Source: an uncultured Roseobacter sp.
GTDB lineage: Bacteria; Pseudomonadota; Alphaproteobacteria; Rhodobacterales; Rhodobacteraceae
Length of the DNA stretch: 64,000 nt
Direction: 5' to 3'
NCBI RefSeq assembly: GCF_947493125.1
Contig: NZ_CANLQB010000013.1
Span: forward strand, 1-64,000
Shown here: positions 18,134-42,876 of the stretch, piece by piece
Layout of the letters: the number at the start of each line of letters is the position of its first letter
Numbering within the stretch: position 1 is the stretch's first letter
The notes under the pieces: generated by a model
The model's database searches: none
Seen by the model: only the letters and a program-made list of their open reading frames with translations
What the model was told of the DNA's origin: nothing
Translations under genes and position numbers: made by a program

Positions 18134-19399
18134 ATGTCAAAGCCAGTGCGCATCGCCTACCTCACAGCGATCTATCCAGGGGTGTCTCATACGTTCATCC
18201 TGCGGGAAGTCGAGGGGCTGCGGGCGCTTGGGCTTGATGTTGAAACCGTGTCGGTGCGCCGTCCGGGGCCGGAGCATCTGCGTGGTCCGGCGGAACGCGC
18301 TGCCGCGGAGACAACGTATTATCTTCTGGAGACCGCGCGCCGTGGCCTGAACCTGCCGGTGGCTCTGGTCGCCGCCCTGGCCCGGCCCGGTCTGTTCTTC
18401 CGGGCGCTCGGGCTGGCCTGGAACACCCGGGCACCGGGCCTTGGCGCGGGGCTCTACCAGCTGTTTTATCTGGCTGAAGCGCTTGTACTCGCACGGCACC
18501 TGCGGGCGCGCGGGGTCACGCATCTGCACAGCCATTTCGCGCAGGCCAGTGCCACGGTCGCGATGCTGACGGCCGAACTGGCAGAGATCGCCTTCAGCTT
18601 CACGCTGCACGGGCCCGCCGATCTTTACGAGCCGCACCGCTGGCGTCTGGGCGACAAGATCGCGCGCGCCGGTTTCGTGTCCTGCATCAGCCATTTCGCG
18701 CGCGCGCAGGGGATGCTGTTTTCCGATCCCGCCCACTGGCCGCGGTTGCGCATCGTGCATTGCGGCGTGGTGCCGGAAACCTATGCGCAGGCGCCGGATA
18801 CCCCCCGTGATGGCGCGGACGGGCTGCATCTTCTCTTTGTCGGCAGGTTGGCACCGGTGAAGGGGCTCAGGGTGTTGCTCGATGCGCTGGCAGCGGCCCG
18901 CGAGACCCACCCCGGCCTGCGGCTGACCATCGTCGGCGATGGCGAGGACCGGGCGCATCTCGAGGCGCTGGCCGCGCCGATGGGCGAGGCAGTGCGCTTC
19001 ACCGGATACCTCTCGCAGGACGAAGTGGCCGAAGTTCTGGCGCAGGCCGATGCCTTCGTGCTGCCGAGTTTCGCCGAAGGATTGCCGGTGGTGCTGATGG
19101 AGGCGCTGGCCGCCGGCAAGCCCGCCATCGCGCCCCGTGTCGCGGGGGTCGCGGAGCTGATCGAAGATGGACGTACCGGGTATCTGGTGCATGCCGGGGA
19201 CGTCACGGGGCTGCGCGCAGCGATCGAGCGCCTGGCGACGGATCCGGAGGCGGGCAGGGCGCTGGGGGCGGCGGGCCGCGAGACGGTGCAGGCAGAGTTC
19301 GATGCAAGGATCGAGGCCGCGCGCATCGCACGGCTGTTTTGCGCGGGACCGGGGGAGGATCTGCGCCCGGCCCCCCTCCAGCCAGAGGAGATCAGCTGA
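18134..19399 (+). CDS. family 4 glycosyltransferase (WcaL/colanic-acid type)
   Basis: 421 residues of a GT-B enzyme. The N-terminal domain opens RIAYLTAIYPGVSHTFILREVEGLRALG, a hallmark of WcaL/EpsD-like transferases. HLHSHFAQASATVAM and FTLHGPADLY follow. The C-terminal donor domain has LLFVGRLAPVKGL, LTIVGDGEDR and the SFAEGLPVVLMEALAAGKP motif containing the conserved Glu pair. The ATG (18134) is preferred over the GTG three bases upstream. Its TGA overlaps the ATG of the next sulfotransferase (TGATG), so the acceptor made by this enzyme may be sulfated by its partner. Confidence 0.88.
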   Translation: MSKPVRIAYLTAIYPGVSHTFILREVEGLRALGLDVETVSVRRPGPEHLRGPAERAAAETTYYLLETARRGLNLPVALVAALARPGLFFRALGLAWNTRAPGLGAGLYQLFYLAEALVLARHLRARGVTHLHSHFAQASATVAMLTAELAEIAFSFTLHGPADLYEPHRWRLGDKIARAGFVSCISHFARAQGMLFSDPAHWPRLRIVHCGVVPETYAQAPDTPRDGADGLHLLFVGRLAPVKGLRVLLDALAAARETHPGLRLTIVGDGEDRAHLEALAAPMGEAVRFTGYLSQDEVAEVLAQADAFVLPSFAEGLPVVLMEALAAGKPAIAPRVAGVAELIEDGRTGYLVHAGDVTGLRAAIERLATDPEAGRALGAAGRETVQAEFDARIEAARIARLFCAGPGEDLRPAPLQPEEIS

Positions 19400-20334
19400 T
19401 GGCCGAGGCCGATATCACTGCGCGCGCGTTCATCGTTTTCGGTGCGCTGCGCTCCGGCACCACGCTTCTGCGTCTGATGCTGGATGGCCACCCCCGGATC
19501 ACCTGTCCCGGTGAGATGGATTTCCTCATCGATCATCTCGATGCCACGGGCGGTTATGACCGCGCAGCGCTGCAGGCCGACCGGATCTTTCGGGCGCATG
19601 AGGCGCTTTATCCCGATCACCCGCTGTCCGAGCCGGGGCCACAGGATTTCGTCGCCCGTGTGGCTGGGCCAGAGGACGGGATGGCCGCGGTGATCCTGCA
19701 CCGGCATCTCGACAGGGCGCTCGAGGTCTTCCCGGGCATGCGTGTCGTGCACCTGATGCGCGACCCGCGCGACGTGGCGCGCTCCTCTATCGGCATGGGA
19801 TGGGCGGGCAACACCTATTACGGGGTGGATCACTGGATCGGCACGCAGCGCGACTGGCAAAGGGCGCTGCCGCAGCTGCCGGACGCACAGCGGCTGGTGA
19901 TCCGCTACGAGGATCTCATCGTGTCTCCCGAGGAAACGTTGGGGGCGATCTGCAGCTTCGTCGGGCTCGATTTTCATCCCGACATGCTCGCCTATGATGC
20001 GGACAGCAGTTATTCGAAACCCGATCCACGCCTGATCACGCAGTGGAAGCGCAAACAGAGCCCGCGCGACGTGGGGCTGGTCGAAGCCAAGATCGGGCCT
20101 TTGCTGCAGGACAGCGGCTATGCGCCCTCCGGCCATCCGCAGGCCCCGCCCTCAGCCGTGGAGCGGGCCCGGCTCTGGCTGAACAACAAGCGGGTGGTCT
20201 GGGCCTGGCGGTTCCGGCGTCACGGGCTGGTGGACCCGCTTCTGGTGAAGCTCGCGCCCCGGATCGGGCTGTCGCATCTCGGGCGATCCGCCCGGCAACG
20301 CATGGATGCAAATCGCATCCGCCATCTGAAATGA
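19399..20334 (+). CDS. PAPS-dependent sulfotransferase
   Basis: 311 residues. The PAPS 5' loop is IVFGALRSGTTLLRLMLDGH (about residues 11-30) and the 3' loop is VVHLMRDPRDVARSSIGMGW (about residues 114-133). A WAGNTYYGVDHWIGTQRDW segment and RLVIRYEDLIVSPEETL complete the usual sulfotransferase core. Translation is coupled to the glycosyltransferase by a TGATG overlap. The C-terminal 60 residues are basic and may contact membrane or glycan. It is best read as a sulfotransferase acting on the repeat unit. Confidence 0.87.
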   Translation: MAEADITARAFIVFGALRSGTTLLRLMLDGHPRITCPGEMDFLIDHLDATGGYDRAALQADRIFRAHEALYPDHPLSEPGPQDFVARVAGPEDGMAAVILHRHLDRALEVFPGMRVVHLMRDPRDVARSSIGMGWAGNTYYGVDHWIGTQRDWQRALPQLPDAQRLVIRYEDLIVSPEETLGAICSFVGLDFHPDMLAYDADSSYSKPDPRLITQWKRKQSPRDVGLVEAKIGPLLQDSGYAPSGHPQAPPSAVERARLWLNNKRVVWAWRFRRHGLVDPLLVKLAPRIGLSHLGRSARQRMDANRIRHLK

Positions 20335-20440
20335 TCTGCGCCCGCGCCCAGGCTTTCACGGAAAAGCCCGCCCTCACGGATGGCTTGACACAGGACCGGT
20401 CCACTGGAACCAGAGGACCCATCGATTTCCGGAGCGTTTC

Positions 20441-21283
20441 ATGACCCGACTTCCCAATCTCTTCATCATCGGGACACAGAAAGGTGGGTCCACCTCATTT
20501 CACCGGCACCTGGCCGGGCACCCCGACATCGGAAGCTTTCGGGAAAAGGAAATCAACCTCCTGCTCGATGGAATAGACGTCGAAAAACGGCTGCATGAGC
20601 TGGGCCCGCCGCAGGGCGGCGACCGCTATCTTCTGGACGGGTCGATCAATTACACGCGCTATCCGCGCCATGGCGGTGTGCCCGCGCGCATCGTCGAACA
20701 CGTCGGGCGCGAGACGCCGCGCTTTATCTACACGCTGCGCAACCCGGTGGACCGGCTGATCAGCCAGTATCACTGGAACGCACAGCGTTACGGCGCGCCG
20801 CGCGATCTGATGCAGGCGGTGGCCACCGACGACACCTATGTGGCGACCGGACAGTATGATCTGCAGATGCAGCAGTATCTGAAGCATTTCTCGCTGGATC
20901 AGTTCCACTTCGTCCGGTTCGAGACGTTCAGGGCAGATCCGCAGGCAGAGGTCGACAGCGCGCTGGACTGGCTCGGCCTGCCGCCGATGACCATCAACAC
21001 CGAGGTCCGGCTGGCCAGCACCAGCGCAAAGACGACCCGCGCACAGCGCTTTCCCCGGCTGCATGCCTTCCTTGCCGGCACGCCTGCGCTGCGGCGACCG
21101 CTGCAGAAACTTCTGTCCGACCGCACCCTGCGCCGTCTCAACAGTGTCATGTCCACCGAGGTGGAACGCGCACCGGTCAGCCGGGAGACGCGCCACGCGT
21201 TGCTGGAGCGGTATTTTCTCGACAGCATCGACAGGACCGAGGCGCTTCTCGGCCTTGATCTGAGCGACTGGAAAACCGTCTGA
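20441..21283 (+). CDS. PAPS-dependent sulfotransferase (heparan N-sulfotransferase-like)
   Basis: 280 residues. It opens LFIIGTQKGGSTSFHRHLAG, where the GTQKGGST loop resembles the GVQKGGTT motif of NDST/HS3ST-type sulfotransferases. FREKEINLLLDG matches the K/E-N segment seen in that group. The 3' loop is RFIYTLRNPVDRLISQYHWN near residue 97. The gene stands 106 bases after the previous sulfotransferase with its own GGAG site, and its product is clearly a different subfamily from its neighbour. It may sulfate a different position of the polymer. It converges on the SMR gene. Confidence 0.88.
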   Translation: MTRLPNLFIIGTQKGGSTSFHRHLAGHPDIGSFREKEINLLLDGIDVEKRLHELGPPQGGDRYLLDGSINYTRYPRHGGVPARIVEHVGRETPRFIYTLRNPVDRLISQYHWNAQRYGAPRDLMQAVATDDTYVATGQYDLQMQQYLKHFSLDQFHFVRFETFRADPQAEVDSALDWLGLPPMTINTEVRLASTSAKTTRAQRFPRLHAFLAGTPALRRPLQKLLSDRTLRRLNSVMSTEVERAPVSRETRHALLERYFLDSIDRTEALLGLDLSDWKTV

Positions 21284-21292: not shown

Positions 21293-21631
21293 TCAGCGCG
21301 ACGCCACGACGATTCCCGCGAAGATCAGGGCGACGCCAGCCCATTGGTTGACCCCCAGATCCTCGTTGAAAAGCAGGTTGCCCGCCACCGCGATCATGGC
21401 AAAGCCCGCGCCCGCATAGGCGGGGTAGACCAGGCTCACCGGCAGATAATCGAGCGTCTTGGCGAAGAGAAAGACATTGCCCAGGTAGCACAGGCAAGCG
21501 CCGAGAAACCACGGAGACAAAGCCATTTGCAGGATGGGCGCACCGTCCGCGACCACCCGGCCCTGTTTCAGCAGAATCCCTGCCGTGGCATTCACGGCCG
21601 CAGCAATTCCGAGAAGAACCCAGGCATTCAT
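21293..21631 (-). CDS. small multidrug resistance (SMR/EmrE, ArnE-like) membrane protein
   Basis: 112 residues with four hydrophobic helices: NAWVLLGIAAAVNATAGILL, MALSPWFLGACLCYLGNVFL, SLVYPAYAGAGFAMIAVAG and WAGVALIFAGIVVAS. The YPAYAGAGF element is typical of the SMR/DMT fold. Drug-exporting EmrE has Glu14 in helix 1. Here helix 1 has no acidic residue, which fits the lipid-flipping ArnE/ArnF branch better than a drug pump. The ATG overlaps the methyltransferase stop (TGATG). As the last gene of the DprE1-aminotransferase operon it is a good candidate for flipping the lipid-linked sugar made by that operon. Confidence 0.78.
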   Translation of the reverse strand: MNAWVLLGIAAAVNATAGILLKQGRVVADGAPILQMALSPWFLGACLCYLGNVFLFAKTLDYLPVSLVYPAYAGAGFAMIAVAGNLLFNEDLGVNQWAGVALIFAGIVVASR

Positions 21632-22455
21632 CAGATCTTCTCCAGCACGGCCCGGCGCTGCAGCGCAAAGACCTGCGGAGCCACCCCGCACAGCACCTTG
21701 TCGATCCCGTGCAGCACCTGGAGCACAGGCCGGGGCAGGGGGATGAAGAAGGTCTTGGAGGTCACGCCGCCCGAGGCGAGATAGACGAGCGTTTCGGAAA
21801 ACCCCTGCTCCAGCACCTTGAAGCCCCCCATGCGTGTCTCGAATGCTGCGGCATCGTCAAAGAGCAGGTTCGGCACCACGTTGTTGCCCGACCACAGATC
21901 GGAGGGGTCGTTCACCGGTTTGCTGTCGTCAAACACATCGACGTCGTAGGAATACCCCTCGATCCGCATCATGTGCAGCATCATCCGCATCAGCACCGAG
22001 GCGTTCACATCCTGGACCAGGAGTTTACCGCCGGGCTTCAGGATACGGCGGACCTCGGCGAAGAATTTCGGCGGGTAGGGCACATGGTGGATCATGTTCG
22101 AGGCGATGACGAAATCGAACTGCGCGTCCTTGAAGGGCGTCTCCAGCGCATCGACCATCTTAACGTCGAGCCAGTCATATTCGTTGTAGTCGGTCAGCAG
22201 GTAGGATTTCGCCTTCAGCACATCCTTGCCGTAGCCCTGCCCGCAGCCCAGCTCGACCCCTTCCGCGGTGTCGGGGTCGATGAACCGCTGCATCCAGCGA
22301 AAGCGGTTGTCGAGCAGGAAGACAAGGTTCTTGTTCGCCCCGGCATAGAAGGCTTTACGCGCTTCGGGCACATTGCCTTCGTTGCGCATGCGGTTCTCTT
22401 CATGGGCCGGGCGGTAGGGGGCTCCGAGGATCAGGGGCCGGGCGCTGGATGTCAT
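21631..22455 (-). CDS. class I SAM-dependent methyltransferase
   Basis: 274 residues. The SAM-binding motif I is AEGVELGCGQGYGKDVLKA (about residues 64-82). MVDALETPFKDAQFDFVIAS and MIHHVPYPPKFFAEVRRILKPGG form the rest of the Rossmann core seen in Methyltransf_11 enzymes. A GAGAGGAGAG site precedes the ATG. The gene sits between the FAD oxidoreductase (11 bases upstream) and the SMR gene (overlapping). It probably methylates the sugar or amino-sugar made in this operon. The substrate is not evident from sequence. Confidence 0.83.
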   Translation of the reverse strand: MTSSARPLILGAPYRPAHEENRMRNEGNVPEARKAFYAGANKNLVFLLDNRFRWMQRFIDPDTAEGVELGCGQGYGKDVLKAKSYLLTDYNEYDWLDVKMVDALETPFKDAQFDFVIASNMIHHVPYPPKFFAEVRRILKPGGKLLVQDVNASVLMRMMLHMMRIEGYSYDVDVFDDSKPVNDPSDLWSGNNVVPNLLFDDAAAFETRMGGFKVLEQGFSETLVYLASGGVTSKTFFIPLPRPVLQVLHGIDKVLCGVAPQVFALQRRAVLEKI

Positions 22456-22466
22456 GGTCTCTCCTC

Positions 22467-23795
22467 TCAGGCGGCCTTGAGATCTTCGATCACGGTTTCC
22501 ATCCGCTTGCGGGTGCGGTGATAGACGTCCTCCATCAGAATATGGGCAAACTCGCCGTTGCGCCCGACGCTGTAGAGCCCCGGCACGCCGGTGGATTTAT
22601 TGAACTCCCGCCGCACCTCCTCATAGGCCAGACGGTAGACCGGATAGGCGATCTTGGTGCGCAGCACCCGTGCGTCGAGGAAGCGGTCCGTGATGTCGGG
22701 CACAACGTCCGAGAGCTGCTCCAGCATCCGCTGGGCGAGCGCATCATCCTCCATGTTCCACAATTCGCTGCCGGCCTCCGCCCCGATATCGACGGAGAAA
22801 TAGGTCTTGCCCTCGGGCGCGGTCCAGGGCAGCGAAATCGGTGGTTCCTGGACGCGGAAGAAGTCGTATTTCTCCTCCGGGAACCAGACCGCGACATCGG
22901 GCATCAGGTTGCGGCCCTTGAGGAAGAGGTTGACGAAAACCACGTTGGAATAGCGGAAATCCAGAAGCGGTTTGAGCACATCCGCATCGGGTGCAAGCCG
23001 CGGCAGGATGTTCACCGGCGCGGTGCTGATAACCGCCGATGCGGGCTGGACGCCGTCCGCGGTTTCCACGCCAATGGCGCGGCCGTCCTCGATCACGATC
23101 TTCTTCACCGGCGTGTTGAGCCGGATGTCACAGTCGAGCCGGTCCACGAGGCTTTTGCAGATCGCGGCAATGCCACCTTCGGGATAGGCGTGCCAGACCT
23201 TGGGCGTCTCGGGGAGATCCTGGCAGTAGCCGATTGCCACGGCTTTCTTGTTCATCCGCCCCATGGCGCGCAGGTAAAGCGTGTGCAGCACGCCCGGAAG
23301 CTTGTTGCCGATGTCGGGAGACAGCTCTTCCGCCCTGGCACCGGCGAGCCCTTCCATCAGCGGAATGGCCACGTCATGCGCCATCTCGGGCCCGACGGTG
23401 GCCTCGGCCCATTTTGCGGCATCCTTGTGGCCCCCGGGGCGGACCCCCGATGCCTCGACCAGGCGGCTTTTCAGCGCGCTCAGTGTGTAGCGGGGTACGG
23501 TGGCAAGCCCGAAGGGGTAGCTATAGGTTTTTCCCCCCAGCACGATGCTTTCGCCGAAATATTCCACATCCCGGCACTGGTCGGTCACCCCGAGCGTTTC
23601 CGCCAGCCGGTTGGTGATGAGGTGGGTGCCGAAATCGTATTTGAACCCGTCCATGTCGGTGAAGGTGGCGGCGAGCCCGGTCGCACTGCCCGAGGCCTCG
23701 AAGATAACGACAGGAAGGCCCTGCTCGCGCAGCCGTGTGGCAGCAACCAGACCGGCATATCCGGCCCCAACGATCACAACGGGATGGTCTGACAT
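22467..23795 (-). CDS. FAD/NAD(P)-binding oxidoreductase, amine-oxidase-like
   Basis: 442 residues. The N-terminal dinucleotide fold is VVIVGAGYAGLVAATRLREQG ending in the acidic VVIFEAS. FKYDFGTHLITNR near residue 52 corresponds to the second FAD contact of the protoporphyrinogen-oxidase/UDP-galactopyranose-mutase group, and GLYSVGRNGEFAHI near the C-terminus is the third. It lies 33 bases after the aminotransferase gene in the same operon. Possible roles are a sugar mutase-like isomerisation or oxidation of a lipid-linked or nucleotide sugar. I cannot choose between them from sequence. Confidence 0.78.
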   Translation of the reverse strand: MSDHPVVIVGAGYAGLVAATRLREQGLPVVIFEASGSATGLAATFTDMDGFKYDFGTHLITNRLAETLGVTDQCRDVEYFGESIVLGGKTYSYPFGLATVPRYTLSALKSRLVEASGVRPGGHKDAAKWAEATVGPEMAHDVAIPLMEGLAGARAEELSPDIGNKLPGVLHTLYLRAMGRMNKKAVAIGYCQDLPETPKVWHAYPEGGIAAICKSLVDRLDCDIRLNTPVKKIVIEDGRAIGVETADGVQPASAVISTAPVNILPRLAPDADVLKPLLDFRYSNVVFVNLFLKGRNLMPDVAVWFPEEKYDFFRVQEPPISLPWTAPEGKTYFSVDIGAEAGSELWNMEDDALAQRMLEQLSDVVPDITDRFLDARVLRTKIAYPVYRLAYEEVRREFNKSTGVPGLYSVGRNGEFAHILMEDVYHRTRKRMETVIEDLKAA

Positions 23796-23828
23796 AAAAA
23801 TACCCTTTCTTCAAAAATACCACAGGGC

Positions 23829-25292
23829 CTAGCCGCCCTGCGTCACGAACCCTTTGACATAGCTGGTGGCAATCGCCGTCACGCCCCGGCCCATCAGCTT
23901 TTCCAGAGCGGCGATGAAGCGGCGCACCTCCTCTTCGGTCACGATGAGCGGTGGCTCCAGCCGGATGACATTGCGGTTGTATTCGGTGAACGCCACGAGG
24001 ATGTCGTAGTCACGCAGCAGAATAGAGCCGATGAAGCCGCACAGAGACCCTTTGAGCTTGTCGTCCGCCTTCGACAGCACACCGCGGAAGAGCCCCGGCA
24101 TGGTCTGGCTGAAATCCTGGAATTCGAGCCCCACCATCAGCCCTTCGCCGCGCACCTCCTTGATCATATGCGGGAACTTCGCCTGCAGACGTTTCAGCTC
24201 CGAGATCAGCAGGGCCCCCTGTTTGGCGGCATTCTCCAGCAGGTCGTCGTCGTAGATCGTGTTCAGCGTCTCGATGGCGGTGGCGCAGCTTTCGCCCATG
24301 CCGCCGAAGGTCGCCTGCGCATGGATGATCGCCGTCTTCGGGTCGCCATAGGCCTGCATGTAGAAGTCCTTGCGCGTGATGACCGCGCCGACAGCCGCCT
24401 TGCCCCCGCCCAGCGATTTCGCAAGCGTGACCACATCGGGCACCACGCCTGCATGCTCAAAAGCAAAGAACTTGCCCGTCCGGCCCACGCCGCATTGTAC
24501 CTCGTCGGCGATCCAGACCACCTTGTGCGCATCGCAGAGCCTGCGCACCTCCTGCCAGTAGTCCGGCGGTGCGGTGATGATGCCCGCACCGCCCTGGATG
24601 GTCTCGAGGATGAGAACCCCGATCTCCGGGTCGCCCTCCAGACGGCGGCGCAGCGCGTCGATGTCGCCGAAGGGGACCTTCACGGTGGTGGTCATCAGGG
24701 TGAAGTCGTTCTGATAAAGCGGGCTGTCGGTGATCGACAGCGAGCCGCGGGTCTTGCCGTGAAAGGCCTTTTCGGCAAAGAGGATCTTCTTGCGCCCGGG
24801 CCCCGCCACGCGTTCGGCGATCTTCAGGGCATATTCCACCGCTTCCGATCCGGCGGTCGACAGAAACACGTGATCGAGCGTGCCGGGGGCGATCTGTGCC
24901 AGGTTATGCGCCAGCGTCGCGGCATATTGCGACATGAAGGCGATGGCGATCTCGTGGCGCTTTTCCTCCTGGAACCGTTTGCGGGCGGCGAGGATGCGCG
25001 GATGGTTGTGCCCCAGCGCAATGGAGCCGAAGCCTCCGAAGAAATCGAGGATCGCTCGCCCGTTCTGGTCGTAGTAATACATCCCCTCCGCCTTGGAGAG
25101 GGTGATCTTGTGAAAGCCCAGAAGCCGGAAGAGCCCGTATTGCGCAGGGTTGAGATGCGCCTTGAAAAGCTCCGCCACCTTCTCGTTGCTCATGGCAAAC
25201 GCGTCTTCGAGCGTCAGCAGCTCAGGCGGGGGCGGAGCCGGGGTGGTGTCCACGGGCGTGGCCTCCTCGGTGCGGATCGGTGTCTTGTTCAT
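23829..25292 (-). CDS. class III PLP-dependent aminotransferase
   Basis: 487 residues with the ornithine/acetylornithine/4-aminobutyrate aminotransferase fold. The PLP region contains LSTAGSEAVEYALKIAERV, AFHGKTRGSLSITD and WIADEVQCGVGRTGKFFAFE. DVVTLAKSLGGG holds the Schiff-base Lys. It is slightly longer than usual, with a Pro-rich N-terminus. Its ATG overlaps the stop of the DprE1-like oxidase (ATGA), the tightest link in this operon, so the two probably act in sequence. DprE1 enzymes create a 2-keto sugar lipid. An aminotransferase directly coupled to one could aminate that keto group, though this is an inference. A role in amino acid or polyamine metabolism is the conservative alternative. 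Confidence 0.85.
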   Translation of the reverse strand: MNKTPIRTEEATPVDTTPAPPPPELLTLEDAFAMSNEKVAELFKAHLNPAQYGLFRLLGFHKITLSKAEGMYYYDQNGRAILDFFGGFGSIALGHNHPRILAARKRFQEEKRHEIAIAFMSQYAATLAHNLAQIAPGTLDHVFLSTAGSEAVEYALKIAERVAGPGRKKILFAEKAFHGKTRGSLSITDSPLYQNDFTLMTTTVKVPFGDIDALRRRLEGDPEIGVLILETIQGGAGIITAPPDYWQEVRRLCDAHKVVWIADEVQCGVGRTGKFFAFEHAGVVPDVVTLAKSLGGGKAAVGAVITRKDFYMQAYGDPKTAIIHAQATFGGMGESCATAIETLNTIYDDDLLENAAKQGALLISELKRLQAKFPHMIKEVRGEGLMVGLEFQDFSQTMPGLFRGVLSKADDKLKGSLCGFIGSILLRDYDILVAFTEYNRNVIRLEPPLIVTEEEVRRFIAALEKLMGRGVTAIATSYVKGFVTQGG

Positions 25293-26659
25293 GATAGCCC
25301 AAGTCTCTCAGATTGGTGCGATTTGAAAACCCCGGCGGCCCCGATATCCCGGCGCAGCGCCTCGAAATTCTCCAGGTCGTCGTATCCGCGCCGAAAGGTT
25401 TCGGCACTCATCCGCGCATCCTTGGCCAGATAGATGCGCCCCTGGTAGGCGGTGACGATGGCATCGAGACGGTGCAGCAGCCTGGGCAGCGTCTTCGTCA
25501 TCGGAAAATCCAGCGCCAGCGTATAGCCCTGCATCGGGAAAGACAGCCCGGTGCGCGACTGTGCGCCCATCAGCTTGAGCACGGCGAGGAAGGCCCCTTC
25601 ACCGGAGGCCCGGATCGCATCAAGCATCTGGCGCAACCCGCGCAGGCTGGCAGCCAGCGGCAGGACGCATTGATACTGGACGAAACCGCGCCGCCCGTAG
25701 AGCCGGTTCCAGTGCAAGACCGCGTCGAGCGGATAGAAATAGCTGTCGTAATCCACCAGCTGTGTTTCTGTCTTGCCGCGCTGTGCCCGCCAGTAGGCCA
25801 TGTTGAAGGCGCGGGCGCTCCAGCGGTTGAGCAGGAGGTTGGGGGCATTGGCGGGCACTGACAGTCGCCGACGGGCTGGGGCCTCCAGCGGACGGGCGCG
25901 GCGCGCAGCAGGCAGATCATCGAGGCGCGCGTGCTCTCCGCGGAACAGCACCGTGCGCCCCTGCGCCGCGCCACCGGCCAGCGCATCGATCCAGGCCACC
26001 GTATAGGTCCAGTCCTGCGAGGCCTCGAAGGCGGCAAAGGCCGCCTCAAGATCCGGCGCCATCACGGTTTCCTGACGCATCCATGCGGTCTCGACAGGGA
26101 TCATCTGCAGCGCCAGACGCCGGATGATCCCGGTCAGCCCCATGCCACCCAGAGTAGCCTCAAAAAGAGCCGGGTCCTCGGTCGGGCTGCAGCGCCGAAG
26201 GCTGCCGTCTGCACCCATCAGCTCCAGCCAGAGCACATGATCTCCGAAGGCGCCGGCCGCATGGTGGTTCTTGCCATGCACATCCGCGGCTGCCGCACCG
26301 CCCAGGGTGACGAATTTCGTACCCGGCGTCACCGGCACGAACCAGCCCTGCGGCACCGTGATCGCCAGCACATCGGCGAAACTCGCACCAGCCTCGGCCT
26401 CCAGCACGCCGGAGGCGGCATCAAGCGAGACCGCCCGGCCCATCTGCGTTGTCCGGATCACACCCTGCGCCTGCAGCGCACTGTCACCATAAGCGCGCCC
26501 GGCGCCGCGCGCGATAACGGGGCCGGTCTCCAGCACCCGGTGCGCACCCTCACAGGTTTCAGGGGCATGTGTGACACATTTCAAGACCGGGTAGCGGCCC
26601 CAGCCACTCAAGAGTTCATCGGTGGGATGATGACGATATTGCAAGCCCCTTCCCCCCAA
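25289..26659 (-). CDS. DprE1-like polyprenylphosphoryl-ribose 2-oxidase (FAD)
   Basis: 456 residues. VIARGAGRAYGDSALQ and GTKFVTLGGAAAADVHGKNH are the two FAD-binding blocks characteristic of mycobacterial DprE1 and related vanillyl-alcohol-oxidase-fold enzymes, including the HGKNHH flavin-site motif. DprE1 oxidises C2 of decaprenylphosphoryl-ribose on the way to arabinose donors. The segment GYTLALDFPM aligns with the DprE1 stretch that holds the benzothiazinone target Cys, and here that position is Ala. The listed start is TTG with no clear ribosome site. A TTG five codons later follows GGAAGGGG. The gene heads the minus operon and is divergent from a GT-C gene followed by the HAD-UbiA fusion. 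Confidence 0.85.
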   Translation of the reverse strand: MGGRGLQYRHHPTDELLSGWGRYPVLKCVTHAPETCEGAHRVLETGPVIARGAGRAYGDSALQAQGVIRTTQMGRAVSLDAASGVLEAEAGASFADVLAITVPQGWFVPVTPGTKFVTLGGAAAADVHGKNHHAAGAFGDHVLWLELMGADGSLRRCSPTEDPALFEATLGGMGLTGIIRRLALQMIPVETAWMRQETVMAPDLEAAFAAFEASQDWTYTVAWIDALAGGAAQGRTVLFRGEHARLDDLPAARRARPLEAPARRRLSVPANAPNLLLNRWSARAFNMAYWRAQRGKTETQLVDYDSYFYPLDAVLHWNRLYGRRGFVQYQCVLPLAASLRGLRQMLDAIRASGEGAFLAVLKLMGAQSRTGLSFPMQGYTLALDFPMTKTLPRLLHRLDAIVTAYQGRIYLAKDARMSAETFRRGYDDLENFEALRRDIGAAGVFKSHQSERLGLS

Positions 26660-26897
26660 AATCTATAAACTTATACCAAATTACCGGGTTCACTTGTGGA
26701 TCTTGGCCCGCTCAAGTCAACGATTTTTGCCATTCCGTCGGCAATTTGCCGCAAAGCGCTCCGATGTGGATCACAAATTGACATCCTCGCGGCCTTGGGG
26801 CCATTTTAACCGGGCGGTGAAAATCATGTTCCCGACCTCCGGACCCTATCGGTAAAGATCTCTTTTCAGAACGTATGTTTAAATGGGCTGATGCGGC

Positions 26898-28181
26898 ATG
26901 CAGGACGCACAACGATTTCATAAAGACTTTGCGCTGATTTTTTTCGTTCTCTTCGCAATCTACGTGTTGCGTGACGTGCCAGGCGCCCTGGCGCCGCCGC
27001 TTTTCAACGAAGACGGCCCCAACATGCTGGACTTCTACACCGCCAGCCATGCCCCCGCAGATATCTTCCGCTTTTACGGCGGCTATGTCTCGGTCGGCCC
27101 CAACCTTTTGGGATATCTCTTCGGGTTTCTGCCGATTGCAGCGGCCGTCTACGCGCTCTACTGGGTCCCGATTGCGATTGCCGCACTGACCTTCGCGGTT
27201 ATGTGCCATCCAAGCTTTGCGCTTCCAGGCATGACCCGGCCGGAGCGGATGTTCATCGCTCTGCTGCTGGGGCTTTTTCCCGCCGCCAACACCGCCTTGA
27301 TGACCAACACGACCTTCGCGCTGTGGAACCTGGCGATCCTGCTGTTCTTCCTCGGTCTGCTGTGGACACCGCGGACGGGAGTAGGCGCCGTGGCGGGTGC
27401 TGTGTTCTGCGTGATCGCGGCCACATCGCACCCGGTCTCCGTCATTCTGTTCCCCGTTCTGCTGTGGCGCGTCTGGCAAGCGCAGACTGCGCTTGAACGC
27501 TGGGCCTTCCTGCCCGTGACCGCAGTGCTGCCCGTCTATCTTCTGATCGGAGTGGCCCCGGATGGGTCGGGCGATACGCCCGCGATCATTGCCACACTTT
27601 GGGAAGCGATACGGCTGTTTCTGGAGCGCGGTATCTTCGAGACGCTCTTCAGCACCCGGGTGCGCAGCATGTTTCTGCACCGGGATCTGGCCGTCGGTCT
27701 CTGGATTATCAGCCTGGGCCTGCTCGGGGTCGTGATTTGGCAGGCCCGGGGCCGGGTGCGCCTGCTGGTGGTGGTGCTGCTGACCCTCGGATTCGGCAAC
27801 AGCCTGTTTTGTGCGGTCGCGCGGGAGATGCCGCTCGAAAACACCTGGGGGCACCGCTACGGGTATCTCACTGGCGTTCTGTTTCTGTTGGCCGCAGCGC
27901 TCAGCCTGCTGCCGGCCTGGCGCCGCTGGTCTCCGGGCCTGCGCTGGCTCCGGCCGGCGGCCATCACAGCCCTGACCGGGCTGATCCTGTTGTCGCTGGC
28001 CCTGAAGCTGCCCTATTACCGCACCAACCCTGTCAAACGCATGGAAGTGGCGCAGTTGCTGGACACCCTGCAAGATGCCACGAGCCCCTACTGCCTGCGT
28101 GTCGACCGCGGCGAATGGAGCTTTGCAGTGCGGGATTCGGAAAACGCCGAATGCGTCACATTGCCTGCGGTCACGAGATAG
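26898..28181 (+). CDS. GT-C-like integral membrane protein, candidate pentosyltransferase
   Basis: 427 residues with about ten hydrophobic segments. The first extracytoplasmic loop contains LAPPLFNEDGPNMLDFYTAS. The NED acidic pair just after the first helix is the usual GT-C catalytic position. A soluble tail of about 40 residues includes two Cys (SPYCLRVDRGEW and ENAECVTL) that could pair outside the cytoplasm. No named family is certain. Placed between the divergent DprE1-like gene and the HAD-UbiA gene, it is the best candidate to transfer the lipid-linked pentose to polymer. Confidence is good for the membrane topology and modest for the reaction. Confidence 0.65.
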   Translation: MQDAQRFHKDFALIFFVLFAIYVLRDVPGALAPPLFNEDGPNMLDFYTASHAPADIFRFYGGYVSVGPNLLGYLFGFLPIAAAVYALYWVPIAIAALTFAVMCHPSFALPGMTRPERMFIALLLGLFPAANTALMTNTTFALWNLAILLFFLGLLWTPRTGVGAVAGAVFCVIAATSHPVSVILFPVLLWRVWQAQTALERWAFLPVTAVLPVYLLIGVAPDGSGDTPAIIATLWEAIRLFLERGIFETLFSTRVRSMFLHRDLAVGLWIISLGLLGVVIWQARGRVRLLVVVLLTLGFGNSLFCAVAREMPLENTWGHRYGYLTGVLFLLAAALSLLPAWRRWSPGLRWLRPAAITALTGLILLSLALKLPYYRTNPVKRMEVAQLLDTLQDATSPYCLRVDRGEWSFAVRDSENAECVTLPAVTR

Positions 28182-28234
28182 CCCGCCTTGTAAGGAGGGG
28201 CCGCAGCCCGCAGGGGACATATCGGCCCGATAGG

Positions 28235-28263
28235 GTGCGCAGCGGAGCGCACAGGCCTTCTTT
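28235..28263 (+). terminator. possible weak terminator after the GT-C gene
   Basis: A six-pair perfect stem GTGCGC (28235-28240) / GCGCAC (28247-28252) with a six-base loop is followed ten bases on by a short T-rich stretch (TTCTTTTAC). The T-run is offset from the stem, so termination would be inefficient at best. It could separate the GT-C gene from the HAD-UbiA gene 94 bases downstream. Confidence 0.35.
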
Positions 28264-28345
28264 TACAATTTTCTTGGAGTTCAGGCCCGCTACCATGCTA
28301 TGATGGTGATCTGATGTGTAGATTTTAACGAAGACAGATTTTTTA

Positions 28346-29785
28346 ATGACAGCACACGGATTTTCAGTACCGCTTGTGGACGAGAGACCGCTTTGCGTTG
28401 ATCTCGACGGAACACTTTCCCGGGTCGATACCCTGCACGAAGGCATGTTGCGCGCGCTCAAGAAGGCGCCTGCCGACTTTCTGCGCAGCCTGCCGCTGGC
28501 CTTGGCCTCCAAGGCGCGCTTCAAACGGCGCATCGCCGAAATCGCACCGACACCTGCCGAGACACTTCCGCTCAATGAAGACGTGCTCGCCTATGTGCGC
28601 GCGCAGAGCGAGCAGGGGCGACAGGTCGACCTGGTCTCTGCCGCAGACCAGTCCATCGTGGATGCCGTCGCCTCGCGGCTGCCGTTTTTCAATCGTGTGA
28701 TCGGCAGTGACGGGCAGACCAACCTGAGTGCCGCCCGCAAACTCGCGGCCATTCGAGACCTGCATGCCGAGGGCTTTGTCTACGCCGGTGACAGCCGGGC
28801 CGACAGCGCCATCTGGCAGGCCACTGACCAGGCGATTGTCGTGGGCACCGAAACCTTTGCGCGCCAGGCCATTGGCCCTGCGCAACTGGCGGCCCTTTTC
28901 CCGCGCGCCCTGTCATGGCGCGCTGTCTGGCGCGCGGTGCGGCCCCATCAGTGGGCGAAGAACCTGCTGCTCTTCGTACCGCTGGTGCTGGCGGGGCAGG
29001 AGGCGGTAGGCGCGGATTTCCTGATCACGCTTCTGGGGTTCGCTGCGTTCTGCTGCATTGCGTCAGCGGGCTATATTTTCAACGACCTGATGGATCTCGA
29101 TGCCGACCGGGCGCATCCGAAAAAACAATTCCGGCCCTTTGCTGCGGGTATTCTGACGGCCGCTGAAGGTGTCGTACTTTTTGCCGCGCTGATACTCGGA
29201 GGCGGGCTCATCGCCTGGACCCTCGGGCCTGTCTTCATGGCCGTCTGCGGCCTCTATTTCTGCGGCACGATGCTCTATTCCTTCTGGCTCAAGCGTCGCC
29301 CGCTGGTCGATATCATGGCCCTGGCCTCGCTCTATACGATCCGGATCGTGGCCGGCACGGTCCTGACGGCGAATACCTTCTCGTTCTGGATCTTCACCTT
29401 CTCGATGTTCATCTTCGCCAGCCTCGCCATTCTCAAACGCTATACCGAACTGATGGACGAGACGATTCACAGGACCGTCCGCAAGAGCCGGGGGTATACG
29501 GCAACGGACCTGCCGCTGCTGCTGCCGTTCGGGGCGGGGTCGGCGGTCGCAGCGGCCCTGCTTTTCGTGATCTACCTGGTCGAGGAGCGCTTTCCGTCGG
29601 GCGCCTATGCCAACCCCGAGCTGCTCTGGCTGATCTTCCCGATCCTGCTGTTCTGGCAGATGCACATATGGCGCGCAGCCTTGCATGGCAAGGTGCAGGA
29701 AGATCCGGTTCTCTTCGCGCTCAAGGACCGGCTGTCACAAATCCTCGGCGGGCTGTCCGGGCTGGTGATCGTCGCCTCCTGGTAG
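28346..29785 (+). CDS. HAD phosphatase fused to UbiA-family phosphoribosyl-polyprenyl transferase
   Basis: 479 residues. Residues about 12-200 are a HAD hydrolase: LCVDLDGTLSRVD (motif I, DxD), LVSAADQSIVDAV, and YAGDSRADSAIW (motif III/IV acidic). Residues about 205-479 are a UbiA prenyltransferase with nine helices. RPHQWAKNLLLFVP and NDLMDLDADRAHPKKQFRP carry the signatures of decaprenyl-phosphate phosphoribosyltransferase (DPPR synthase, Rv3806c-like). The UbiA part would transfer 5-phosphoribose from PRPP to polyprenyl phosphate, and the HAD part would remove the 5-phosphate, yielding the substrate of the DprE1-like enzyme next door. The reaction order is inferred from the mycobacterial pathway. 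Confidence 0.87.
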   Translation: MTAHGFSVPLVDERPLCVDLDGTLSRVDTLHEGMLRALKKAPADFLRSLPLALASKARFKRRIAEIAPTPAETLPLNEDVLAYVRAQSEQGRQVDLVSAADQSIVDAVASRLPFFNRVIGSDGQTNLSAARKLAAIRDLHAEGFVYAGDSRADSAIWQATDQAIVVGTETFARQAIGPAQLAALFPRALSWRAVWRAVRPHQWAKNLLLFVPLVLAGQEAVGADFLITLLGFAAFCCIASAGYIFNDLMDLDADRAHPKKQFRPFAAGILTAAEGVVLFAALILGGGLIAWTLGPVFMAVCGLYFCGTMLYSFWLKRRPLVDIMALASLYTIRIVAGTVLTANTFSFWIFTFSMFIFASLAILKRYTELMDETIHRTVRKSRGYTATDLPLLLPFGAGSAVAAALLFVIYLVEERFPSGAYANPELLWLIFPILLFWQMHIWRAALHGKVQEDPVLFALKDRLSQILGGLSGLVIVASW

Positions 29786-29808: not shown

Positions 29809-32442
29809 TCACCCGCCGTACATGCGGTAGACCCGGCGCCCCATGTAGAACATGACAGCGAAGAAGAGCCCCAAGGGCAGCCAAAGCGACAGCGCAGAGG
29901 GCAGCCCGTGGATTTCAAGCACCTTGTAGACGGGGATCACGAACTGGTGCAGCACGTAGATCGGGAGCGCAAGCCCGCCGAAGGTCAGGGCAATGCGCAA
30001 CAGCACCCGCGCGCCACCCTTCGCCTGCGCCCAGCCCGGCAGAACCGTCAGGAACAGACCCAGCATGAACACGCAGAGACTGCCGTAGTACCCCAGACCG
30101 ATCAGCGAGGTATGCATCCGGGTAGAGCTGGTCAGCAGAATGGTGCCATGCGCCTGCAGAAGGGCAGCGCCGCAGAACACCGCACCCAGTCCGCCAACCA
30201 GCAGCATCCGGCGGCGCACGACGTCCATATCGCTCTGCTGCGTGATCCAGTATCCCACCGCGATCCCTGCCGCGGTCATCGTGCCCAGCTTGAAGACATT
30301 GTAGCCGCCGGCCCCGAACATCAGCCGCAACAGTTCGACCGGGGAGACATATTGCGCATCGGGCATGAGGTCGCGCATGAGCTGCCACAGCCCCCAGCAG
30401 ACAAGCGACAGGATCAGCAGCGTGGTGACCGGGTGTTTCAGCCGGGCGAGCGGCGGCAGCCACAGGCGCGCGGTGGTCAACATGATCGTGTAATAGAGCA
30501 ATACGCTGTAGAAGGCATTGGAGACGGTCAGCCAGTTCATCAGGTTGCCGCGCCGTTCCGCATAGCCGAGATAGACGATCCCCATCAGCACCGCGCCCAG
30601 CCCGACCAGCAGCGCCGCACGGTCGGTCCGGTGATAGACGGCCCGCGGGTCCCGCCGTATCTCCAGCAGCATATAGAGCCCGATGCCGATGCCGAAGACA
30701 AAGGCAAACCCCGGCGTACCGAGGCGCGTGAAGGAAATGAACAGGGTCTGCGGAAGCCCCAGCATGTTCATCAGCCCTGGCCCCCAGTGCGAGAGCAGCA
30801 CCGCCATGACGACCACCGCCCGGGTCAGGGTCAGCGCCCATGTCAGGCGGGTCTTCTCCGGCAGCGGTGCACGCGCGGCGGCCGGGGCAGGGGCATCGGG
30901 CATGGCCTGTGCCGCCACATCCCGCAGGCTGGCCCCTTCGAAGGTTGCATTGATGGCCGGGCGGGGAATACCGGCCTTTTCCATCACCAGCCCGATCTGC
31001 AACCCACTGAGGGAATCGCCGCCGCTGTCGTAGAAACTGTTGTCCGGCCCAATCTCCACCGCGCCCAGAACACGTACCCAGAGCTGCGCAATCCGCGCCT
31101 CTTCCTCCGAAAGCGGCACCCCATGCACGTCCTTGGGGGATGTCTCTGCCGCCCCCTGATCTTGCCCGCTGTCGGACGCGCTCTCGCGCAGGACGGCGCG
31201 GCTGATCTTGCCGGTGGCGGTGCGGGGCAGCGCATCGAGCGTCACCCGTTTGAGGTTACCACCCGCGCTCACGCCCTTTTCCTTGAGCGCCTGCAGCACC
31301 GCCGCCGCCACGAGATCTTCCATGCCGTCCGCAGGGGGTTCCAGTGCCAACAGCACAGCCTCACCGCGCATCGGATCGGCCACCGGGGTCAGGGCGAAAT
31401 GCCCTCGGGCCGCTGGAACAAGCGCGGCGACGCGCGTCTCCAGGGCTTCCGCGCCGACCTTGATCCCGCCCAGGTTCATCTGGTCGTCGAGACGCCCGAG
31501 AAAGTACAGCATGCCGTCGCGGATCTCGCCCCGGTCGGAGGTGCGCAGCCAGCCATCGGTGTCCGCCAGCGGCATGATGGCACCGCCGGAGCCGAGCCGG
31601 CCCGGCGCCACATGTGCGCCGCGGATTTCAATCGCGCCCTTCGCGCCGATCCGCACCCGGTCCTCCGCAGGCCCGACCGACTCCAGCCTGTCCGCATCGG
31701 TCTCGTCCGAGATCACCAGAAACGTTGTCCGTGAGGCTTCGGTCATGCCGTAGTGCTGTACGATCCGAGCCCGGGGAAAGAGCCGCTGCATCTGCTGCTT
31801 TTCCTCCGCGCTCATGTACTGGCTGCCGATCTCGATCCAGCGCACGGCCTCTCCGGCCGTCCCGATCACGTCGGGCGCGGCGAGGATGAGCCGCCACAGG
31901 CTCGGCACTGCGGAGATCGCATTGATCTCGCCTGCGTCGAGCAATTGGCGGATCTCCACCGGATCGAACCGCTCGGGCAGATAGCAGGCACCGCCCGCCG
32001 CACTTACCGCGCGCACGCGTCCCAGCCCGAAGGAATAGGTGACCGGCACACCGATATATTCGCGGATCTCCTCGGTGACCTGCATCACCGCATTGAGCCG
32101 TTGCACCACGTCAGACAGGTTTCGGTGGGACAAGACGATGGCCTTGGGCTGGCCCTCGGTCCCGGAGGTGAAAACGATCTGTGCAGGTCTGTCGCTGACA
32201 GACGTCTCATGCGTCAATCGAAGCCAGCCCCGGGTTTCCGAGGCATGGGTCAGGGATGTGAAGGGCACGCCATAGGCTGCGGGGTCGATGTCGGGCCGCG
32301 TGACGGCAAAGAGCCGCCCTGCATCGTAGGATGCAAAGGCCGCTTGCAGAAACTCATGCGAATTCGCGGCAGCAATGGCAACCAGGCCATCTCTCGCCAC
32401 CGTATCGAGCGAGGCGACATCCAGATGATCCATTCGGGTCAT
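29809..32442 (-). CDS. adenylation-carrier-membrane acyltransferase tri-domain protein
   Basis: 877 residues. The adenylation domain covers about residues 20-420: IVFTSGTEGQPK (A3, 89-100), QHYGMTEASRT (A5), GWLRTSDRGEI (A7), GRLDDQMNLGGIKVG (A8) and PRTATGKISRAV (A10, Lys412). A carrier domain follows at about 445-515, with the phosphopantetheine site GGDS at Ser477. Residues 530-877 are a ten-helix acyltransferase-3 domain with the Arg541...His552 pair. This is a one-chain version of activating, carrying and membrane-transferring an acyl or aminoacyl group, comparable in logic to DltA, DltC and DltB. The adenylation domain is short at its N-terminus (A1/A2 not obvious). It converges on the HAD-UbiA gene. 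The acyl group is unknown. Confidence 0.88.
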   Translation of the reverse strand: MTRMDHLDVASLDTVARDGLVAIAAANSHEFLQAAFASYDAGRLFAVTRPDIDPAAYGVPFTSLTHASETRGWLRLTHETSVSDRPAQIVFTSGTEGQPKAIVLSHRNLSDVVQRLNAVMQVTEEIREYIGVPVTYSFGLGRVRAVSAAGGACYLPERFDPVEIRQLLDAGEINAISAVPSLWRLILAAPDVIGTAGEAVRWIEIGSQYMSAEEKQQMQRLFPRARIVQHYGMTEASRTTFLVISDETDADRLESVGPAEDRVRIGAKGAIEIRGAHVAPGRLGSGGAIMPLADTDGWLRTSDRGEIRDGMLYFLGRLDDQMNLGGIKVGAEALETRVAALVPAARGHFALTPVADPMRGEAVLLALEPPADGMEDLVAAAVLQALKEKGVSAGGNLKRVTLDALPRTATGKISRAVLRESASDSGQDQGAAETSPKDVHGVPLSEEEARIAQLWVRVLGAVEIGPDNSFYDSGGDSLSGLQIGLVMEKAGIPRPAINATFEGASLRDVAAQAMPDAPAPAAARAPLPEKTRLTWALTLTRAVVVMAVLLSHWGPGLMNMLGLPQTLFISFTRLGTPGFAFVFGIGIGLYMLLEIRRDPRAVYHRTDRAALLVGLGAVLMGIVYLGYAERRGNLMNWLTVSNAFYSVLLYYTIMLTTARLWLPPLARLKHPVTTLLILSLVCWGLWQLMRDLMPDAQYVSPVELLRLMFGAGGYNVFKLGTMTAAGIAVGYWITQQSDMDVVRRRMLLVGGLGAVFCGAALLQAHGTILLTSSTRMHTSLIGLGYYGSLCVFMLGLFLTVLPGWAQAKGGARVLLRIALTFGGLALPIYVLHQFVIPVYKVLEIHGLPSALSLWLPLGLFFAVMFYMGRRVYRMYGG

Positions 32443-36221: not shown

Positions 36222-36726
36222 AATCTACCTACACCAAACTCTGGATCTGAAAATTGATCCTACCTCACCAAGCACACACTCAACACTCGGCCCCGAAAAT
36301 CATTCTATGCACGGCCTTGGTCTAGTACCTAACAGCAATCTGCGACACGGGCAAAGCTCGTCTCAAAAAAAGGTAAAATTTTTCAAGAATAATGTCCAAA
36401 TTTTCGTCACATCACCGGAAATACACGTTCTGATTGCGCGGGCGGCACCAACATCGGCCTCGACAGAGCGCCGGCACACGGAAAACCGAATCGCCCCCGC
36501 TTTTTGACGTTCACTCAAATTTCATATGTAAAAGCCCATCCTTCCCTTACTGTGGTATTTGCGCGGAAGATTGCCGGGGGCCGTCCCGGGCGCCTCATTG
36601 CAGCCTCATGACTGCCTTGATTTAGCAAAAATTTTCCCATAGCCGCTGTTGGGCGAGCCTTTGGCGACCTACATTTTACGAGTACAGTATCAGCGCGAGT
36701 GGTCAGCAGCAGGAAGGCACACTTAC
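36222..36726 (+). other. 505-bp intergenic region between divergent operons
   Basis: This separates the priming transferase (minus) from the ATPase-Wzz-kinase operon (plus) and probably contains promoters for both, making it a likely control point for polymer synthesis. It is AT-rich relative to coding DNA. A TTGACG element at 36504 with TATGTA at 36525 has a 15-base spacer, shorter than ideal, so I do not assign a promoter. No gene or clear hairpin was found. Confidence 0.6.
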
Positions 36727-37608
36727 ATGGCCAGTGAACTTTACACGGCACATTTCGGCTTCCGGGAACGACCGTTTACGCTTTCGCCCGACCCGGACTT
36801 TCTGTTCTGGTCCAAGGCACACGGTCGCGCATTCTCGGTGTTGAAATACGGGCTGACGACCAGCGCGCCCCTCACCGTGGTCACCGGCGAGGTCGGCACG
36901 GGCAAGACCACGCTGATCCAGGCTTTGCTGCGCGATATGGACAAGGAGGTCTCCCTTGGCCTGATCTCCAATGCGCAGGGCGACCGGGGCGATCTTCTGC
37001 GGTGGGTGCTCAATTCGCTGGGCGTGTCGCTGCCGCAGGACACCGATTATGTCTCCCTGTTCCAGCACTTCCAGAATTTCGTGATCGACGAATACGCCAG
37101 TGGCCGACACGTGGTCCTCGTGATCGACGAAGCGCAGAACCTCGGGTCGGAGATGCTCGAAGAGCTGCGCATGCTGACGAATATCAACTCCGGCAAGGAC
37201 GAGCTGTTGCAGATCATCCTCGTGGGCCAGCCGGAACTGCGCCACATCATCAGCCAGCCGGAGCTGCGCCAGTTTGCCCAGCGGGTCACGGTCACCTACC
37301 ATATCGATCCCTTCGATCTGCGCGAAACCCGCGACTACGTCCGGCACCGGCTGCAGCATGTGGGGGGCACCGGCGATGAAATTACCTCCGGGGCCGTGCG
37401 ACATATCTTCGAGGAGACGGGTGGCATCCCGCGCATGATCAACAAGCTGTGTGATCTGGCGCTGGTCTACGCCTCCGCCGCCGACCAGCAGAAGGCTGGG
37501 CTCGGCGTGGTGCGTGAACTCTACCGGGACGGGCTGATCCTGAAACCCGCCGAACCGCCGCTCTACCTGACCAACCGTATCGACGTTCCGCAAAAGGCCG
37601 CCGAATGA
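36727..37608 (+). CDS. ExeA-like AAA ATPase of the exosortase/EPS locus
   Basis: 293 residues. FGFRERPFTLSPDPDFLFWS at the N-terminus is the ExeA/GspA family opening. Walker A is GEVGTGKTT (residues 54-62), Walker B is VLVIDEAQN, and EETGGIPRMINKLCDLALVY is the sensor 2 region. Related ATPases are regularly found beside Wzz and BY-kinase genes in PEP-CTERM polysaccharide loci. No peptidoglycan-binding or membrane domain is attached, so it is a cytosolic ATPase. The start follows AGGAAGG. An in-frame ATG at 36649 would add 26 unrelated residues. Its stop overlaps the Wzz start (ATGA). Confidence 0.85.
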   Translation: MASELYTAHFGFRERPFTLSPDPDFLFWSKAHGRAFSVLKYGLTTSAPLTVVTGEVGTGKTTLIQALLRDMDKEVSLGLISNAQGDRGDLLRWVLNSLGVSLPQDTDYVSLFQHFQNFVIDEYASGRHVVLVIDEAQNLGSEMLEELRMLTNINSGKDELLQIILVGQPELRHIISQPELRQFAQRVTVTYHIDPFDLRETRDYVRHRLQHVGGTGDEITSGAVRHIFEETGGIPRMINKLCDLALVYASAADQQKAGLGVVRELYRDGLILKPAEPPLYLTNRIDVPQKAAE

Positions 37609-39167: not shown

Positions 39168-39217
39168 ATCCAATGTGCAGGACCAGATCTTGCGGATACT
39201 TTAAAGAGTGAACGGAT

Positions 39218-40027: not shown

Positions 40028-40051
40028 CCCGCGCGGACGCTGGCCCCCAGC

Positions 40052-42871: not shown

Positions 42872-42876
42872 CCCGC

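Follow-up and report, generated by a model that had tools for sequence, protein, structure and literature searches.

What does an aminotransferase do in the place where a lipid-linked pentose pathway would carry its reductase? The question is raised by a stretch of 64,000 nucleotides (the window) from an uncultured Roseobacter sp. (contig NZ_CANLQB010000013.1, positions 1 to 64,000), in which a HAD-UbiA fusion and a DprE1-like oxidase lie together with a class III pyridoxal phosphate (PLP) aminotransferase, here called AT. We propose, with a probability of about 0.7, that these genes make a polyprenyl-phosphate-linked 2-amino-2-deoxy-pentofuranose, AT aminating the 2-keto lipid of DprE1 in place of the reduction carried out by DprE2. 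The exchange of DprE2 for AT is repeated and nearly exclusive, occurs once as a gene fusion and goes with a particular type of flippase.

Between 26659 and 21293 the minus strand carries a five-gene operon (oxidase, AT, flavin adenine dinucleotide (FAD) protein, methyltransferase and small multidrug resistance (SMR) protein). All the locus genes have open frames and coding-type third-position GC. Domain models, together with the open frames, place the five operon genes and the HAD-UbiA fusion where the original prediction had put them, and the four-base overlap of the oxidase stop with the aminotransferase start that it described is seen in the sequence. The features are as follows.

25289–26659, minus strand: DprE1-like FAD oxidase (NF053785, solved DprE1, HGKNHH and AKDAR motifs)
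25289–25292, minus strand: ATGA, in which the stop of the oxidase overlaps the start of AT
23829–25292, minus strand: class III PLP aminotransferase, AT (PF00202), occupying the slot that DprE2 has in relatives
22467–23795, minus strand: FAD amine-oxidase-like protein (PF01593, 90.8 bits)
21631–22455, minus strand: S-adenosylmethionine-dependent methyltransferase (PF08241, 58.9 bits)
21293–21631 (start probably 21631), minus strand: SMR protein, predicted lipid-sugar flippase (PF00893, 42.2 bits)
26660–26897: divergent intergenic region between the five-gene operon and the membrane protein/HAD-UbiA pair, from gene layout and sequence
26898–28181, plus strand: membrane protein with about 10 hydrophobic segments, candidate GT-C glycosyltransferase
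28346–29785, plus strand: HAD-UbiA fusion, predicted polyprenyl-phosphate phosphoribosyltransferase and 5'-phosphatase (NF006088, PF01040, PF12710)

No DprE2 Is Found in the Window's Genome

Relatives were sought in a set of 99 genomes that counts the window's own; 19 of these carry a DprE1-like protein, 18 of them besides the window's. In all 18 a protein scoring 129.7–204.5 bits on the DprE2 model NF053786 adjoins DprE1, and AT is found in none of them. Two of these loci (L023 and L024) have the gene order HAD-UbiA, GtrA, DprE1, DprE2, with a four-base overlap between DprE1 and DprE2. The search of the whole genome for DprE2 that the original prediction had proposed bears it out: with all 53 candidates scored on NF053786, the window's genome (listed as 100% complete, in 32 contigs) yielded no DprE2, the best score being 79.1 bits, and a background reductase scores 72–81 bits in the five genomes of the same genus that carry a true DprE2. 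With a relative's DprE2 as the query, the 25 matches are likewise background (best 65 bits, 33% identity). We therefore rejected a DprE2 overlooked elsewhere in the genome. The DprE2 partner that would make the oxidase part of a DprE1/DprE2 2'-epimerase is thus present in 18/18 controls and was not found in the window's genome.

AT and DprE2 Are Nearly Mutually Exclusive

In the order of the Rhizobiales locus L056, at least 44 of 297 genomes carry DprE1, a lower bound since five candidates were scored per genome. DprE2 is present in 29 of the 44 and AT in 14; no genome combines the two, and a single one, G664, lacks both (DprE1 called by NF053785 at E up to 1e-50, DprE2 at E up to 1e-25, AT matches at 59–64% identity). 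A Fisher test on the 44 genomes gives p = 1.3e-10, a figure that carries no correction for kinship and that kinship makes too small. AT lies within about 3.4 kb of DprE1 in 13 AT genomes out of 14, G732 being the exception; DprE2 adjoins DprE1 in 28 of the 29 DprE2 genomes, and in G501 the two are on different contigs. The DprE1-like protein of G664 (L179:9718–11067) lacks the HGKNH motif and sits inside the AT-linked clade; judging by its sequence, it may not be a true DprE1.

The exclusion extends to other genomes. In G279, which belongs to another order, AT adjoins DprE1 and no DprE2 was found, that order being covered by two genomes. A class-wide search of 385 genomes found AT in at least two, G279 and that of the window, with at most four candidates per genome scored in the results shown. 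Furthermore, when DprE2 was searched for in 16 AT genomes from the scan described below (those of 17 chosen loci, L069 excepted; 90 candidates scored per genome; two genomes had more), it was found in Bradyrhizobium algeriense (L126) only.

AT Recurs with DprE1 and UbiA, Once as a Fusion

A scan of GTDB contigs by AT alone yielded 79 loci, mostly Rhizobiales by title, at 52–66% identity (28% in L131). On the same stretch, a DprE1-like protein was found in 75 and UbiA in 75. Wider probes found SMR proteins in 76 of the 79, an epimerase-like protein in 77 (in L083 at a weak 48 bits), a GT-C-like protein in 53 and DprE2 in 2 (in L081 at a weak 49 bits). The commonest order, seen in 44 loci, is UbiA, DprE1, SMR, epimerase-like protein and AT, followed by GT-C on the opposite strand; 20 more loci show it without a GT-C match. 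The four AT loci without DprE1 are L064, L092, L122, which lies at a contig end, and L131, whose match falls outside the family. Flanking genes differ among L056, L083, L116 and L094. That AT came to lie beside DprE1 by chance in one genome was rejected on the recurrence of DprE1 in 75 of the 79 loci and on the mutual exclusion. In Brucella cytisi (L119:7355–8480) we also observed a DprE1 homologue as two separate pieces.

A check proposed in the original prediction was whether the oxidase-aminotransferase pair forms a fused or coupled unit in other genomes, and both forms occur. The four-base overlap of DprE1 and AT is present in the window and in L166 (genome G279), and in L083, from a metagenome-assembled genome named Thermodesulfobacteriota, the two proteins are fused in one 957-codon frame with no internal stop (8310–11183), adjoining an FkbM-like protein.

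AT itself belongs to class III, scoring 298.2 bits on PF00202 against a cut-off of 30.5; it also matches PF00155, weakly, and no other Pfam family. The catalytic lysine K292 (AKSLGGG) is invariant in 14/14 aligned family members. Full-length members from other orders are 59–66% identical to the window's AT. Its nearest named or solved relatives are PigE and putrescine aminotransferase, and it aligns over its length with transaminases. A search of plasmids with AT gave one record at 64% identity, the other 29 listed being at 31–36%; from this gap in sequence identity, the AT family looks discrete.

When linkage to AT is mapped on a tree of 64 DprE1 proteins, three changes are required, and the branches that force each of them have support of 95% or more in the Shimodaira-Hasegawa-like approximate likelihood ratio test. 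One places the window's DprE1 within a set of 27 rows whose other members are linked to DprE2, another places the group of G279, L116 and L083 (itself at 91%) within a set of 14, and the third is the Rhizobiales clade. This tree omits G563, G687 and G501, for which there is no locus, and L157 and L160 were removed as duplicates of L169 and L178. A smaller tree, built from the window, 21 hand-picked AT loci and 18 loci linked to DprE2, requires four changes, two of them forced; matches under 900 bases were omitted from it, including a second DprE1 of L126.

The Oxidase Appears Conserved between AT-Linked and DprE2-Linked Lineages

The window's oxidase scores 444.7 bits (E 4.5e-133) on the NCBIfam equivalog NF053785, below its cut-off of 500, and the DprE1 of a DprE2-linked relative scores 399.4 bits. 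Going by these scores, the oxidase is classed as DprE1-like and not as an NF053785 equivalog. It aligns over its full length with conserved HGKN and KD residues, and a search of the PDB gave 307 bits against the solved DprE1 of M. tuberculosis. Translation probably starts at the TTG at 26644 rather than at 26659, directly behind the purine-rich GGGGGGAAGGGG. The protein is of the local, DprE2-linked type, with 57.6% identity to a copy on a Salipiger plasmid.

Across 63 DprE1 proteins, 17 AT-linked and 46 DprE2-linked, 40 columns are invariant, including H128-G129-K130-N131 and K413-D414 of the window (L179, from G664, was excluded from this comparison since it lacks the HGKNH motif). No column of the conserved part separates the AT-linked from the DprE2-linked proteins; the two columns that do separate them are residues 3–4, in the ragged N-terminus. 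We rejected an altered DprE1 chemistry in the AT-linked lineages on these grounds. C2 oxidation is therefore likely to be kept in both groups, which favours a role for AT directly after DprE1, with one and the same keto lipid as substrate.

A Particular Type of Predicted Flippase Accompanies AT

A profile of AT-linked SMR proteins matches 87/91 AT loci and 0/18 DprE2 loci; since AT-linked proteins went into the profile, what it tells us lies solely in the contrast with the DprE2 loci. GtrA shows the opposite distribution (0/91 AT loci, 7/18 DprE2 loci). The 91 AT loci are the 79 of the scan and 12 of 14 further stretches (not L172 or L179), and the 12 may repeat genomes among the 79. All 13 aligned SMR members, the window's included, have Asn where EmrE has its helix-1 Glu, Glu14 (lined up by eye), in agreement with the original description of an SMR protein lacking this residue. 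In Rhizobiales, the L056 SMR protein matches ArnF (50.9 bits) and ArnE (36.8 bits) and nothing else among NCBIfam models at E 1e-5, both scores being below cut-off.

The structural model of the L056 GT-C protein (predicted local distance difference test score, pLDDT, 85.4) finds ArnT as the best solved fold (E 3.6e-05), followed by ALG12 and AglB, with AftA and AftB lower down at E of about 0.02. Template modelling scores are low (0.3–0.4), so the model identifies the fold as GT-C but does not reveal the acceptor.

A Proposed Route to a Lipid-Linked Aminopentose

The HAD-UbiA fusion scores 530.7 bits on NF006088, above the model cut-off, and its domains score 82.6 bits on PF01040 and, for the HAD part, 26.6 bits on PF12710, slightly below the Pfam cut-off of 27. 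By sequence, then, the window holds a predicted phosphoribosyltransferase with a phosphatase domain and a putative flippase, the SMR protein. From the genes we infer the following reactions, and with them the stereochemistry and the acceptor. HAD-UbiA would join phosphoribosyl pyrophosphate (PRPP) to polyprenyl phosphate and remove the 5'-phosphate, giving polyprenyl-P-ribofuranose, which the DprE1-like oxidase would oxidise at C2 to the 2-keto lipid. AT would then transaminate the keto lipid, replacing the DprE2 reduction, the SMR protein would flip the aminated lipid-sugar, and a GT-C enzyme would transfer the aminopentose to an envelope polymer. The window's FAD protein and methyltransferase would probably tailor the amino-sugar further, although these two roles, like the GT-C step in the window, are guesses. 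Amination by AT at C2 of the keto lipid is the simplest reading. The core of the original prediction, amination in place of reduction, thus gains strong support from comparative genomics (no DprE2 found in the whole genome, exclusion, recurrence, fusion and flippase type); the FAD protein and methyltransferase that it included have no match in the 79 AT loci (tblastn, E 1e-4), which makes them local additions to the window.

Several observations weigh against this proposal. Class III aminotransferases mostly act on amino acids, diamines and aldehydes. In L064 and L092 the stretch examined holds AT together with HAD-UbiA, SMR and epimerase, yet DprE1 is missing from it, and in G732 DprE1 and AT are on different contigs. 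Bradyrhizobium algeriense has both AT and DprE2 (242 bits); there (L126:4021–8429) DprE1 is linked to AT, and DprE2 stands beside a second, interrupted DprE1 homologue. For half of the AT genomes of the L056 order (7 of 14), 46 of 52–87 reductase candidates were scored, so the absence of DprE2 is slightly less sure there. The window's SMR protein was itself among the AT-linked seeds of the SMR profile, which makes its match circular, and 11 of the 18 DprE2 loci have neither SMR nor GtrA. The original label of an ArnE-like SMR protein suits the L056 protein but not the window's, which scores about equally on EmrE-type and ArnE models, both far below cut-off. The label GT-C for 26898–28181 was not confirmed either: this protein has no match in Pfam (E 0.01), NCBIfam (1e-5) or the PDB (10), a profile built on it fails to match the GT-C of Rhizobiales, and its single-sequence model (pLDDT 52) is too poor to use. 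Finally, a GalE-like epimerase absent from the window is part of most modules in Rhizobiales, so the products may differ.

This epimerase-like protein is an extended short-chain dehydrogenase resembling GalE (3ehe, E 1e-28), with nucleotide-binding and YxxxK motifs kept. It was not detected in the window, L170 or L178, which points to variation in the product rather than to a core part of the module. It also bears on an alternative in which the oxidase acts at another carbon, C3 or C5, giving a 3-amino or 5-amino pentose lipid. PigE and putrescine aminotransferase, the nearest solved aminotransferases, act at chain ends, which counts in favour of such a product. So does the presence of the GalE-like epimerase in most Rhizobiales modules, because in Citrobacter a GalE-like enzyme converts lipid-linked ribofuranose to xylofuranose by a change at C3, according to the main text of PMC11127046. 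We nevertheless consider oxidation at C3 or C5 unlikely, since no conserved DprE1 column divides the AT-linked from the DprE2-linked proteins and the epimerase, undetected in three of the loci, is not core.

The many other polysaccharide genes at the locus, and the many short-chain reductases in the genome (the 25 matches to the DprE2 query), would also fit an AT that works on an amino-sugar or amino acid in a nearby step of the exopolysaccharide while an unlinked reductase turns the 2-keto lipid into arabinose. The mutual exclusion of AT and DprE2 and the DprE1-AT fusion make this quite unlikely, as does the company of AT with DprE1 and UbiA elsewhere, amid the differing flanks of L056, L083, L116 and L094. 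Class III relatives also include lyases, for example PbfA among the matches of AT, so that AT might act on the keto lipid as a PLP enzyme of another kind, by epimerisation or elimination for instance, and leave a nitrogen-free sugar. Given the lysine invariant in 14/14 members, the alignment of AT over its length with transaminases, and the ArnF/ArnE-like flippase of the Rhizobiales L056, which suits an amino-sugar, we regard a nitrogen-free product as very unlikely. Amination of the 2-keto lipid by AT remains the reading that we prefer.

Local Additions and Surroundings of the Locus

None of the 25 NCBIfam models listed reaches its cut-off on the window's FAD protein, whose relatives in the PDB are weak (best E 6.6e-10). 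The nearest plasmid homologue of the methyltransferase is 45% identical and adjoins a GtrA gene; it lies on a Hirschia baltica plasmid (L181:13522–14813). This neighbourhood hints that the methyltransferase might methylate lipid-linked sugars. Among the plasmid neighbours of the FAD-protein and methyltransferase homologues there is no aminotransferase and nothing annotated as DprE1; an annotated 'FAD-binding oxidoreductase' is found at the edge of the FAD-protein plasmid stretch.

The surroundings in the window form an exopolysaccharide locus with a Wzx-type flippase, glycosyltransferases, sulfotransferases, a ManC-type protein, a WecG-type transferase and an O-antigen ligase-like protein, the last slightly under its cut-off. 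Tail-to-tail with HAD-UbiA lies a large protein (29809–32442, minus strand) with AMP-binding and PP-binding carrier domains and a C-terminal hydrophobic region, which could conceivably acylate a sugar. Three sulfotransferase-like proteins and one arylsulfotransferase-like protein (6724–9881 and 19339–21283) suggest a sulfated exopolysaccharide. An XrtA/PEP-CTERM-type ATPase and chain-length protein (36649–39167) each score below their model cut-off. The DNA from 37601 to 45500 is similar to polysaccharide loci on plasmids of Rhodovulum, Palleronia and Roseobacter, at 67–75% identity (six records listed), which suggests that the organism probably belongs to the Rhodobacteraceae or a related group.

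Comparison with Known Systems

In agreement with the original prediction, which knew of no description of such a donor, we found no account of an aminated branch, of the aminopentose pathway or of this gene combination in the open-access literature searched (bioRxiv lying outside that scope). If the proposal is true, the route from PRPP to lipid-linked pentoses gains a branch that makes amino-sugars. Surface sugars of a new class, the 2-amino-2-deoxy-pentoses, would then be expected in many Rhizobiales and in some bacteria of other groups, and cells would have a second way, independent of the first, to an Arn-like cationic modification. We also lean towards the wider view that this is a second lipid-linked pentofuranose branch, widespread in Pseudomonadota and present in the genome named Thermodesulfobacteriota, in which DprE1 hands on to AT, flipping and transfer are Arn-like, and a positive envelope charge has evolved independently.

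The Arn pathway makes undecaprenyl-P-4-amino-4-deoxy-L-arabinose and employs ArnB, ArnE/F and ArnT. The likeness lies in the predicted polyprenyl-P-aminopentose, the SMR flippase and, in Rhizobiales, the ArnT-like GT-C fold. The route proposed here differs in that the precursor would be PRPP and not a uridine diphosphate sugar, the oxidase is another one, the aminotransferase is of class III and not DegT-type, and the nitrogen is predicted to be on C2. AT is not the DegT-type ArnB that marks the Arn pathway, and no whole-genome search for ArnB was made. With PigE and putrescine aminotransferase, AT has the class III family and catalytic motifs in common, but it forms a separate family.

The mycobacterial DprE1/DprE2 2'-epimerase, which leads to polyprenyl-P-arabinose, is alike in that HAD-UbiA corresponds to Rv3806c plus a phosphatase and the window's oxidase keeps the motifs common to DprE2-linked relatives. 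It differs in its DprE2, which was not found in the window's genome, where a PLP aminotransferase occupies the slot. DprE1 is a leading tuberculosis drug target, and a natural exchange of its partner enzyme therefore bears on how the DprE1 product is handed over.

There is also a likeness to the three-component pentofuranose pathways described for Citrobacter youngae O1/O2, in which, according to the main text of PMC11127046, DprE1/E2 serve for arabinose and an epimerase for xylose. As far as that text describes them, these systems have a HAD-UbiA type synthase, a flippase and a GT-C enzyme, to which the window's HAD-UbiA fusion, putative SMR flippase and candidate GT-C protein would correspond, with the HAD-UbiA domain pair found in the characterised PPPRS ORF15, and accessory enzymes that tailor the lipid-linked ribofuranose, one of them a GalE-like epimerase of the kind that most modules of Rhizobiales hold. 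A farnesyl-P-pentose was used there as a donor. The differences from the systems of that main text, which does not mention an aminotransferase, are the aminotransferase following DprE1 and a flippase of the SMR and not the MATE type. We read the locus as a probable variant of this three-component pathway, the aminotransferase being its new part.

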